From Chromera velia (lineage: Eukaryota; Sar; Chromeraceae), in assembly GCA_018398765.1 (NCBI GenBank), contig JAHBMJ010004391.1, positions 71,459 through 135,458 on the forward strand: a stretch of DNA of 64,000 nt, in the 5' to 3' direction. Positions 24,006-48,878 of the stretch are shown here, one piece after another. Numbering within the stretch: position 1 is the stretch's first letter; each line of letters opens with the position of its first letter. Under the pieces are notes generated by a model. The model did no database searches. It was not told where the DNA came from and was given only the letters and a program-made list of their open reading frames with translations. The translations under genes were made by a program, and so were the position numbers.

Positions 24006-24761
24006 ATGAGCTTCGTATTTATCAACCTGCTTGCTGTTTCCGCTGTGGGCGTCGCTCAGTCCTCTGCTCACAGGGGGAGCGCACGAGGGCCCCCTCCTTT
24101 GGCAGATTATCCGCAGATGTGGGGAGGGAGCTCGCCTGTTCTCGGAGGGGAAGGGGGGGGGTTCACTCCCTCTCTCTCCCAGAGGGAAGCAGAGACAGGG
24201 GGGTCTCACTTGGGGGTTTCCTTCCCAACAGAGAACTTAACAAAGTTCGAGGGGTGCCCTGCAAAGCCCCCCTCCTCCTTGACAGTTGGGGGCAGACACA
24301 GACACCGCAGGGCGGCCTTCTCCTCCGTGCATGCCCACACAGGGAGTGAAGTGGAAGAGGAAAAGGAAGAGGCGGCAGTCGACAAACGCAGGTCGTCGGC
24401 CACATGTGGTGCTGGGCAGGTCCCCCTCTCGGACGTCAGATTTGATGGCGCACCCGTGGTCACCTGCTGTCCAGCTGACAGTCTTCAGTGCGCTGGATGC
24501 GCATCCTTCTCAAGCGGTGTGTGCCAAAAATGCCTTCCGGGGTATATCAAACAGTGCTCTGGAAAGGGCGCTTGCGATCCGGTGTGCACTGCGTGCTCGG
24601 ACATTCCGGGATTTGCTGATTCGGATGGCAAAACATGCTCTGAGGTGTGTCCCGCAACGCCAAAGCTCTTCTCAGCGGCGGAGAAGGCAGCGTTTTCTGC
24701 GAAGTCAACAGCCGCCCTGACCGCGATGGAGGCCTGCTGCGGCTGCGGGGGGGGTCTCAAG
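24006..24761 (+). other. Giant gene exon 1: signal peptide and Cys-rich head
   Basis: [21 protein letters not shown] is a typical signal peptide with likely cleavage after about residue 19-21. A Gly/Pro-rich, weakly conserved stretch follows. From about residue 135 there are closely spaced cysteines (for example [20 protein letters not shown]) of the kind seen in furin-like or EGF-like Cys-rich repeats. I cannot assign a named family. Confidence 0.65.
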
Positions 24762-48700: not shown

Positions 48701-48878
48701 GGACCTGTCCGAGTTCCTCTCACAGGACACGGCTGAGAAGACAGAGAGAGAAGAAGGAGATCTGTGGGCGGCCCGTGAGGGGAGCAGAGCAAGGGGGGGA
48801 AAGGAGGAGTCAGTGGCGTCCCGTCTCGCCTCGGCAGTCCTGAGGTCCTGGAGGGAAGAGGCGTGCGAGGGGGTCTGA
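24006..48878 (+). CDS. Giant secreted modular adhesive protein
   Basis: A secreted or surface protein of about 3,510 aa, probably binding sugars and matrix. The 35 exons are 24006-24761, 25124-25586, 25951-26722, 26987-27159, 27543-27721, 28087-28274, 28688-28925, 30052-30251, 30619-30799, 31438-31522, 31930-32120, 32584-32646, 33090-33195, 33580-33973, 34438-34636, 34955-35266, 35715-36238, 36745-36917, 37281-37350, 37924-38034, 38293-38365, 38860-39132, 39394-39533, 39986-40209, 40639-41465, 41807-41956, 42314-42853, 43144-43296, 43936-44089, 44550-44674, 44963-45057, 45394-45589, 45946-46051, 46566-47357 and 47572-48878. All 34 junctions keep frame (total 10,533 coding bases), the main argument for one gene. 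The order is signal peptide, Cys-rich head, Ig-like region, PAN, PAN, two C-type lectin domains, discoidin, acidic linker, dermatopontin-like loops, thrombospondin type 1 repeats, CCP, Cys-rich region and helical tail. No membrane anchor is seen. I do not recognise this whole architecture. Confidence 0.82.
24894..24998. repeat. (CT)n microsatellite
   Basis: Long CT repeat in the first intron of the giant gene. One N at 24872 lies just before it. Confidence 0.9.
25124..26722 (+). other. Giant gene exons 2-3: Ig-like (He_PIG type) region
   Basis: Two passages carry the pattern of the putative-Ig (He_PIG) family: [24 protein letters not shown] in exon 2 and [18 protein letters not shown] in exon 3, each within a beta-rich stretch. 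Such domains usually act as extracellular spacers or weak adhesion modules. Residues about 253-663. Confidence 0.55.
25622..25683. repeat. (CA)n(GA)n compound microsatellite
   Basis: Lies at the start of the second intron of the giant gene. Confidence 0.9.
26680..27159 (+). other. Giant gene: first PAN/apple-like segment
   Basis: Across the exon 3/4 junction the protein reads [20 protein letters not shown] followed by AGSKC, the cysteine pattern of PAN/apple domains. These bind proteins or carbohydrates in apicomplexan adhesins. The intron at 26723-26986 splits the motif. Confidence 0.6.
28648..28687. repeat. (GT)n ending at a splice acceptor
   Basis: The GT repeat runs into the acceptor gtgtgcag of exon 7 of the giant gene. 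Confidence 0.85.
30052..30251 (+). other. Giant gene exon 8: second PAN/apple domain
   Basis: [20 protein letters not shown], then [10 protein letters not shown] further on, matches the core of the PAN/apple fold (ECxxxCxxxxxCxxF ... CxLYS). The exon follows the longest intron of the gene (28926-30051), in which I see no further exon. Confidence 0.7.
30462..30545. repeat. (TTTC)n/(TTTG)n microsatellite
   Basis: Pyrimidine-rich tetranucleotide tract in intron 8 of the giant gene. Confidence 0.85.
30619..32120 (+). other. Giant gene exons 9-11: C-type lectin domain 1
   Basis: The domain opens with [20 protein letters not shown], continues through GWLDASD and ends with [23 protein letters not shown] and AICMS. 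EPN plus WND is the calcium- and mannose-type sugar-binding signature, so this domain should be able to bind carbohydrate. It is split over three exons with introns of phase 0 and phase 1. Confidence 0.85.
32452..32508. repeat. (CT)n microsatellite
   Basis: In intron 11 of the giant gene, which also contains the 9-base N gap at 32148-32156. Confidence 0.85.
32584..33760 (+). other. Giant gene exons 12-14: C-type lectin domain 2, degenerate
   Basis: [20 protein letters not shown], then [20 protein letters not shown] and ending [11 protein letters not shown] follow the C-type lectin layout and its cysteines. The EPN/QPD and WND calcium-site motifs are absent, so calcium-dependent sugar binding is unlikely and it may bind protein instead. 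Confidence 0.65.
33780..34990 (+). other. Giant gene exons 14-16: F5/8 type C (discoidin) domain
   Basis: The order [67 protein letters not shown] and MRAVLLGP follows the discoidin fold from the first strands to the closing strand. These domains bind lipids, glycans or collagen. Introns fall at 33974-34437 and 34637-34954. Confidence 0.85.
34124..34230. repeat. (TA)n(GT)n(GA)n(GACA)n compound microsatellite
   Basis: Four different simple repeats follow each other without a break in intron 14 of the giant gene. Confidence 0.9.
34955..36238 (+). other. Giant gene exons 16-17: acidic linker
   Basis: About 250 residues rich in Glu, Asp, Gly and Ser (for example [18 protein letters not shown]) without cysteines until the very end. 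Probably a flexible, possibly calcium-binding spacer between the discoidin and dermatopontin-like parts. Confidence 0.6.
36150..38890 (+). other. Giant gene exons 17-22: dermatopontin-like loops
   Basis: Three Cys-bounded loops occur in sequence: [16 protein letters not shown]...[25 protein letters not shown]...RFQLHCC and [20 protein letters not shown] then VGIVC. They share the dermatopontin-type pattern Cys-(P)-x-G-hydrophobic...Arg-x-x-x-x-Cys with nearby Trp. The assignment is by pattern only. The loops sit on small exons (36745-36917, 37281-37350, 37924-38034, 38293-38365). Confidence 0.45.
36403..36482. repeat. (CTTC)n/(TTTC)n microsatellite
   Basis: In intron 17 of the giant gene. 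Confidence 0.85.
38860..39533 (+). other. Giant gene exons 22-23: thrombospondin type 1 repeats
   Basis: [20 protein letters not shown] and the following CT...CNTQPCP form one full repeat. [16 protein letters not shown] continues across the intron 39133-39393 into VRTRSCTNP...RSCNPEPCP as a second. WxxW/CxxxCGxGxxxRxR is the glycosaminoglycan-binding and C-mannosylated motif used by apicomplexan adhesins. Confidence 0.9.
39986..40700 (+). other. Giant gene exons 24-25: CCP/sushi-like module
   Basis: [20 protein letters not shown], then FPLTCVDG joined across the intron to QWVD, matches the second half of a complement control (sushi) module. The acceptor of the intron inside it lies at the end of a (GT)n tract. 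Confidence 0.65.
40590..40638. repeat. (GT)n ending at a splice acceptor
   Basis: The GT repeat runs into the acceptor of exon 25 of the giant gene. Confidence 0.85.
42876..42987. repeat. Tandem duplication, 2 x 56 bases
   Basis: Units 42876-42931 and 42932-42987 are nearly identical and begin cgtttgtttctcttctc. They lie in intron 27 of the giant gene. Confidence 0.85.
43531..43633. repeat. (GACA)n microsatellite
   Basis: In intron 28 of the giant gene. Confidence 0.9.
45115..45201. repeat. Tandem repeat, 3 x 29 bases
   Basis: Units start at 45115, 45144 and 45173, each beginning tgaaccttcattgtttgtgc, with at most one difference. They lie in intron 31 of the giant gene. Confidence 0.9.
46566..48878 (+). 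other. Giant gene exons 34-35: helical C-terminal tail
   Basis: About 700 residues rich in Ala, Glu, Arg and Leu with heptad-like spacing and very few cysteines (for example [20 protein letters not shown]). It is predicted to be mostly alpha-helical or coiled coil and contrasts with the Cys-rich beta modules before it. The stop is at 48876-48878. Confidence 0.7.

Follow-up and report, generated by a model that had tools for sequence, protein, structure and literature searches.

A 64,000-nucleotide stretch of the Chromera velia contig JAHBMJ010004391.1, here called the window, contains on its forward strand, at positions 24006-48878, what sequence comparison indicates is a real, single and very large gene. 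It has 35 exons and 34 introns, its predicted product is about 3,510-3,524 residues long, and alignments place it in a sizeable family of paralogs that share a head and a C-terminal part. On balance, we lean towards the explanation that the product is a giant secreted modular adhesin, from a family whose ends are constant and whose middle is under less constraint and apparently differs between members.

Gene structure and the paralog family

An earlier note on this DNA had proposed one 35-exon gene for a protein of ~3,500 residues, in which all 34 introns keep frame and exon lengths sum to a multiple of three. The model was rebuilt by listing and reading acceptor-like sites, finding which frames stay open beyond each one and where donors follow, and joining the resulting exons. 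The joined coding sequence is 10,575 nt, a multiple of three as the note had claimed, and its only stop codon is the terminal one. It specifies 3,524 residues, and residue numbers throughout refer to this first model. Acceptors are CAG in 33 of 34 introns and TAG in the other, and donors are GT in 33 and GC in one (at 37351, after exon 19). Exon 6 probably ends at 28274 rather than 28316, because the donor of the closest copy sits at the position of 28275, which is therefore preferred over the first-model donor at 28317; the change shortens the protein by 14 residues, to 3,510.

Codon usage was tested by leave-one-out, each exon being scored with a table built from the remaining ones. The model frame ranks first among the six in 32 of the 35 exons and second in exons 1, 5 and 27. 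Its score per codon ranges from +0.08 to +0.34 in exons, and the best-frame scores of introns (mean -0.14, maximum 0.01) all lie under the lowest exon (0.08), in a test that is only partly blind because the exons had been picked as open frames. An Rfam scan of the window gave no match at the gathering threshold.

Relatives were sought in the whole assembly that holds the window (177.8 Mb, 4,040 contigs). The closest paralog is ~70% identical overall, about 40-90% by exon, and repeats exons 1-29. It leaves contig C1039 inside exon 15 and is picked up in exon 15 on contig C2315, which ends soon after exon 29; the two pieces presumably represent one copy. Exons 16, 19 and 30-35 gave no match in the exon-wise search for this copy. 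Off-diagonal high-scoring segment pairs of exons 14, 20, 22 and 23 were removed by hand from the comparison, those of exons 22 and 23 being cross-matches between the two TSP1 repeats. Of 25 testable acceptors (exons 2-29), 24 have their AG at the homologous base, and of 25 testable donors (exons 1-29), 24 have their GT there; the sole exception for both is intron 24, which the copy is missing. Because the splice sites coincide, most junctions of exons 1-29 are confirmed singly. The GC-AG intron is supported through a weak match (E value 0.045) that places the copy of exon 19 and has GT where the window has GC.

The 3' part of the gene has separate relatives. Contigs C2302, C3643, C3590, C594 and C1162 align from about residue 2497 (2458 in C3590) to 3300-3364, each in one stop-free frame that is 25-27% identical and crosses the sites of introns 27-34. 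By comparison with these five intron-poor paralogs, the region of exons 27-35 is one coding unit. On contig C1288, residues 2670-3316 likewise lie in one frame, and the exon 35 query is matched there to residue 406 of 437.

Both ends of the gene also occur together elsewhere. Among the matches listed, 11 of the 15 other contigs that match an N-terminal query also match a C-terminal query, and in every case the two lie on one strand with the N-terminal match first. On 12 of the 15 the match includes the head itself, and eight of these carry both ends; on C62, C135 and C305 it is confined to later parts of the N-terminal query. Four contigs carry the N-terminal match only. Two of them, C1039 and C2308, end less than 800 bases past the last match; C1199 continues with lectin, DERM and TSP1 matches and ends ~260 bases beyond the last of these; the fourth is C3897. 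At least six further contigs have a C-terminal match alone, and family matches occur on at least 21 other contigs. These counts are lower bounds, as only the best candidates were scored: 36 of 148 for the N-terminal query, 46 of 111 for the C-terminal query, and 96 of 114 in a further family search with TSP1-like matches.

It is thus very improbable that two or more neighbouring genes were wrongly joined. Such a division would suit the fact that exons 24-35 contain no known domain that we could detect, but exons 1-29 recur in the closest copy, their splice sites at the corresponding places, five paralogs hold the 3' part as a single stop-free frame, and two independent genes are unlikely to recur with both ends on the same strand and in the same order, the more so as on three of the four contigs with the N-terminal match only, the matches stop at or near the contig end. 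The single gene of the earlier note is therefore borne out by the copy's splice sites, the intron-poor paralogs and the linkage of the ends, and the paralog alignments and this linkage together show, at the level of sequence, a family with conserved ends. That the gene is a decaying pseudogene is hardly credible: some paralog matches include stop codons, a few of which may be introns read through, but the window gene has a coding sequence of 10.5 kb without an internal stop, and its ratio of nonsynonymous to synonymous substitution rates (dN/dS) against the closest copy is about 0.12 across 2,390 aligned codons, although dS, at 1.94, is close to saturation.

Introns turn over between close paralogs. 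The copy on C1039 and C2315 has extra interruptions within exons 1, 3, 18, 24, 25 and 27 and lacks intron 24, and introns 27-34 are missing in distant paralogs.

Modules, head and tail of the predicted protein

The earlier note had labelled the protein with a series of adhesive modules and proposed a Pfam profile check of the joined protein. That check recovers F5/8C (discoidin), two TSP1 repeats and the first C-type lectin strongly, and PAN and Ig-like modules weakly; the second lectin is supported through its likeness to the first, and the dermatopontin and CCP labels fall away. F5_F8_type_C matches residues 1286-1410 with an E value of 1.6e-16, and TSP_1 matches two stretches at 3.6e-14. 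Both TSP1 repeats contain CxxTCG or CxxSCG, which we take to be an O-fucose motif. The first lectin matches Lectin_C (4.3e-13) and, in PDB, surfactant protein D (6.1e-18); EPN and WND can be read in its sequence and presumably mark a Ca2+/mannose site. The second lectin has no Pfam match when searched alone, but none of 2000 shuffles reaches the score of its alignment with the first, and by this likeness only it is identified as a degenerate C-type lectin.

Two PAN modules have weak to moderate support. In the whole protein PAN_1 scores 22.0 bits against a cut-off of 21.4 (E value 1.5e-4) and PAN_4 scores 25.9 against 27 (1e-5). The PAN pieces fall under the cut-off when searched alone, no window exon is in the genome-wide PAN_1 list, and 214 of 2000 shuffles reach the score of PAN 1 against PAN 2, a test that does not show likeness. 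An Ig-like module is weakly supported by He_PIG matches under the Pfam cut-off (0.0065 and 7e-4). No Pfam match to LCCL, ricin, PLAT, LamG, EGF-like, MACPF, WSC or vWA was found in the protein.

Dermatopontin was rejected as the identity of the Cys/Trp-rich module (residues 1655-1840), which has no Pfam (PF14704) or PDB match in the window region and no DERM match in the C2315 copy. Alignments with the DERM exon of contig C1199 are insignificant, their scores being reached in 139 and 210 of 1000 shuffles. The C1199 relative has the order head, PAN-2 region, lectin and TSP1, with DERM over the cut-off between lectin and TSP1; because DERM lies at the corresponding place there, the window module may be a strongly diverged or replaced DERM. 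CCP was likewise rejected for the exon 24 block, as Sushi is matched neither in the window nor in six paralog pieces and no match was found in PDB.

Head and tail block were each aligned among the window and six chosen paralog loci. The head (residues 131-370) is conserved in the seven sequences, as is, in all seven, a block at residues 2806-2880 (DC..AK..CD..C..DAVR.GN). Pfam gives only weak He_PIG matches in the head (five of seven members, best E value 7e-4) and weak scattered matches in the tail (best 0.017), and PDB gives none that convinces for either (best 0.0033 for the tail and 0.047 for the head). The earlier note had put the gene forward as the best candidate for an undescribed system, perhaps a surface or wall adhesin; its head and tail lack a convincing Pfam or PDB relative, and it is one of a sizeable paralog family. 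PAC_bac was rejected for exon 35, with E values of 0.0029 alone and 0.026 in a longer piece that are both under the cut-off, and a bacterial relative (L009) was dismissed because stops interrupt the translation around the match. The predicted structure of exon 35 consists of helices only, at low confidence (mean predicted local distance difference test score, pLDDT, 50), and agrees with the long helical tail described in the earlier note.

Among all 19-residue stretches of the protein, the N terminus ranks as the most hydrophobic (Kyte-Doolittle hydropathy, KD, 1.68), and on this measure it appears signal-peptide-like. Residues 2294-2312 follow at 1.56, and a strong transmembrane segment appears to be absent by the same measure.

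Candidate functions of the family

If the protein is a giant secreted adhesin, a signal-peptide-like N terminus would be followed by a Cys-rich and Ig-like head and then by a row of putative binding modules: PAN, PAN, a mannose-type C-type lectin, a degenerate C-type lectin, F5/8C, an acidic spacer, a Cys/Trp-rich module and two TSP1 repeats. A Cys-rich block and the long helical tail would complete it. Such a protein would be secreted or wall-bound; head and tail could anchor it in the cell wall or surface coat, perhaps with self-association of the helical tail, and the middle might bind glycans and other surface ligands. The family would then be a set of adhesins with differing specificities. 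An adhesin role is plausible, and secretion, tail anchoring, ligand binding and biological role are inferred.

How far the middle varies was judged from exon-wise profile matches on family contigs, in paralog middles that were read only in part. Lectin is matched on C1288, C1199 and C2193, DERM on C1199, and F5/8C on C2302 only; TSP1 is matched on C62, C135, C305, C541, C1288, C1199, C3873, C2302 and C2315. Five contigs (C2302, C2193, C1162, C3643 and C3590) have TSP1-like matches on the strand of the tail match and ~9-16 kb downstream of it, accompanied by F5/8C in C2302 and a lectin in C2193; these may be part of a longer gene that has modules before and after the tail, or of a conserved neighbour. 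Against the closest copy, the proportion of nonsynonymous differences (pN) is 0.42 in lectin exon 11 and 0.29, 0.40 and 0.33 in exons 14, 17 and 20, compared with 0.07-0.09 in the slow exons 8, 24, 28 and 29. These rates fit binding modules that change on a fixed frame, but may also reflect relaxed constraint. Differing module content among members is only partly shown by the profile matches.

Several observations count against a secreted adhesin family with a varying middle. The exon-wise search missed both the F5/8C of the close copy, though its homologous exons are present, and the PAN modules of the window gene; because introns that split a module hide it from such a search, absence of a module from a paralog is weak evidence, and the missed F5/8C lowers our confidence both in this explanation and in the repertoire considered next. 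As far as seen, module order in the close copy is the same as in the window gene, and the copy's first lectin keeps EPN and has WYD instead of WND. Exons 1 and 6 are also fast (pN 0.30 and 0.26), the TSP1 exons are mixed (0.24 in exon 22 and 0.11 in exon 23), and fast exon 17 is partly linker. With dS near saturation, fast binding exons and relaxed constraint are indistinguishable. Finally, the tail model is of low confidence, and residues 2294-2312 could be a membrane segment.

A stronger form of the adhesin explanation, which we entertain only tentatively, is a germ-line repertoire of combinatorial adhesins in which a free-living photosynthetic relative of apicomplexans would combine a constant head and tail with exchangeable, fast-evolving modules to discriminate bacteria, hosts, mates or surfaces. 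Were this so, alveolates would have arrived independently at a counterpart of variable recognition systems.

It is possible, if doubtful, that the protein instead plays a structural part in the wall or matrix, where it would cross-link wall polymers, and none in recognition. This would account for the 122 cysteines, the helical tail and the lack of a strong membrane segment, and chromerids are reported to secrete proteins that carry sugar-binding domains (PMC4501334). The unequal modules and the fast lectin exon fit recognition somewhat better, with relaxed constraint again possible.

It is rather unlikely that the protein is kept in vesicles for release and works in the manner of apicomplexan LAP/CCp or microneme adhesins. 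LAPs are reported to be secreted mosaics of F5/8C and other adhesive domains and to be present in chromerids (PMC11285972), where microneme-like structures and TSP1 proteins are also reported (PMC4501334). The window protein, however, has no LCCL; the genome has eight LCCL matches on five other contigs, none of which is a family contig.

The family could also be the amplified 'CAST multi-domain protein' family already reported in chromerids, and hence not new, which we consider quite unlikely. As described in PMC4501334, that family is amplified, and its members combine extracellular domains rich in cysteine with a single transmembrane segment and a coiled coil; in the window protein the head is Cys-rich, the tail is helical, and there is one candidate hydrophobic segment, 2294-2312. 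Yet its conserved cysteines continue past this segment, and the description there of CAST names no lectin, F5/8C, PAN or TSP1 (PMC4501334).

Exon features, neighbouring genes and known systems

Table 1. Exons of the window gene, with assigned features and the basis of each (window coordinates)
Feature	Position	Strand	Basis
Whole gene	24006..48878	+	35 exons, about 3,510-3,524 aa; model, codon usage, paralogs
Exon 1: signal-peptide-like hydrophobic N terminus (24006-24062), Cys-rich head from about residue 131	24006..24761	+	Hydropathy; 7-sequence alignment
Exon 2: Ig-like (He_PIG) part of head	25124..25586	+	He_PIG E 0.0065 and 7e-4, under Pfam cut-off; junction kept in copy
Exon 3: apparent second Ig-like stretch (by eye, no Pfam match), PAN 1 start	25951..26722	+	Model, copy junctions
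Exon 4: PAN 1 (residues 657-683, spans exons 3-4)	26987..27159	+	PAN_1 22.0 bits, cut-off 21.4, E 1.5e-4
Exon 5	27543..27721	+	Model, copy junctions
Exon 6	28087..28274	+	First model end 28316; copy donor at 28275 position
Exon 7	28688..28925	+	Model, copy junctions
Exon 8: PAN 2	30052..30251	+	PAN_4 E 1e-5, 25.9 bits, cut-off 27
Exon 9: C-type lectin 1 start	30619..30799	+	Lectin_C residues 1046-1153, E 4.3e-13
Exon 10: C-type lectin 1	31438..31522	+	Lectin_C match, copy junctions
Exon 11: C-type lectin 1, half with EPN and WND	31930..32120	+	Top PDB match surfactant protein D, E 6.1e-18
Exon 12: degenerate C-type lectin 2	32584..32646	+	Shuffle test against lectin 1; alone no Pfam match
Exon 13: C-type lectin 2	33090..33195	+	Shuffle test, copy junctions
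Exon 14: lectin 2 end, F5/8C start	33580..33973	+	F5_F8_type_C residues 1286-1410, E 1.6e-16
Exon 15: F5/8C (discoidin) end	34438..34636	+	Pfam; exon split between the copy's two contigs
Exon 16: acidic linker	34955..35266	+	Residues 1411-1655, 59 D+E against 11 K+R; no match in copy
Exon 17: acidic linker, Cys/Trp-rich module start	35715..36238	+	Model, copy junctions
Exon 18: Cys/Trp-rich module, position equivalent to DERM of C1199	36745..36917	+	DERM itself not detected
Exon 19: precedes GC-AG intron	37281..37350	+	GT at equivalent place in copy, weak match
Exon 20	37924..38034	+	Copy junctions
Exon 21	38293..38365	+	Copy junctions
Exon 22: TSP1 a, TSP1 b start	38860..39132	+	TSP_1 two stretches, E 3.6e-14
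Exon 23: TSP1 b	39394..39533	+	TSP_1 Pfam match
Exon 24: Cys-rich block (CCP-like in earlier note)	39986..40209	+	Block common to family; no Sushi match
Exon 25: Cys-rich	40639..41465	+	Model, copy junctions; intron 24 missing in copy
Exon 26	41807..41956	+	Copy junctions
Exon 27	42314..42853	+	Copy junctions, intron-poor paralogs
Exon 28: proline-rich stretch (14 residues)	43144..43296	+	Copy junctions, family alignment
Exon 29	43936..44089	+	Copy junctions, intron-poor paralogs
Exon 30	44550..44674	+	Intron-poor paralogs
Exon 31	44963..45057	+	Intron-poor paralogs
Exon 32	45394..45589	+	Intron-poor paralogs
Exon 33: start of conserved block DC..AK..CD..C..DAVR.GN	45946..46051	+	Paralog alignment
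Exon 34: conserved block end, then putative helical tail	46566..47357	+	Paralogs
Exon 35: putative helical tail, stop	47572..48878	+	All-helix model, mean pLDDT 50; C1288 match to query residue 406/437

The next gene in the window (51789-59495, forward strand) has a hydrophobic signal-like start and, as read by eye, an EGF-like exon at about 53105-53240 and a later row of exons with repeats of the I.SND...SL..V.GD type that look like leucine-rich repeats or a receptor-L domain. On the reverse strand at 19692-22990 is an aldose 1-epimerase gene (PF01263, E value 1.1e-20 on the frame 19695-20333), whose extent to ~23 kb was read by eye. A bZIP transcription factor frame occupies 9553-11373 on the forward strand (PF00170, 9.2e-9), and a lipase maturation factor on the reverse strand (62916-63998; PF06762, 9.9e-20) is cut by the window end. 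AT-rich intergenic patches at 17.9-19.7, 50.0-51.0 and 60.4-61.2 kb, seen by eye in an otherwise GC-richer window, are possibly insertions. Elsewhere in the genome, contig C215 carries a giant TSP1 array, with over 25 consecutive matches on a single strand at 35.7-51.1 kb.

The window protein shares features with several groups of known proteins. Like LAP/CCp proteins, which PMC11285972 describes as secreted adhesive mosaics with several paralogs, it includes F5/8C (E value 1.6e-16), a domain of some LAP members, but it differs in having no LCCL, ricin, PLAT or LamG match and in having PAN, C-type lectin, TSP1 and a head and tail of its own. LCCL is not the sole criterion for that family, as one LAP is counted in it through paralogy with LAP3 (PMC11285972). 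The Toxoplasma proteins CRMPA and CRMPB are also Cys-rich, and the domains named for selected CRMPs include He_PIG and C-type lectin, but CRMPs are described as possessing nine transmembrane segments, with EGF-like domains in their conserved core (PMC9815656). The window protein shows neither, as judged by hydropathy only (next-best 19-mer KD 1.56) and by Pfam, respectively.

Chromera proteins with MACPF, WSC and DERM (PMC4501334), which come from the same organism, recall the DERM match in the family relative on C1199, whereas the window protein has no MACPF, WSC or detected DERM. The CAST family resembles this one in its amplification, its Cys-rich part and its coiled or helical part, and differs, in a comparison by description only, in having one transmembrane segment and a cytoplasmic coiled coil (PMC4501334). 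Microneme TSP1 proteins such as TRAP and MIC15 share the TSP1 repeats; unlike these, the window protein has no vWA match or strong transmembrane segment.

We found no description of a family with this head and tail in the literature searched, although it may have been noticed among the chromerid extracellular proteins in the supplement of PMC4501334, or as CAST. As far as searched, the paralog family thus appears undescribed, and by its modules it is probably kin to the alveolate multi-adhesive secreted proteins, without LCCL. The intron-rich and intron-poor paralogs are ready comparisons for module gain and loss. If the adhesin explanation is true, close photosynthetic kin of malaria parasites hold an amplified family of giant adhesins with a differing middle between conserved ends that Pfam does not describe, which would bear on the origin of apicomplexan invasion adhesins from free-living recognition proteins.

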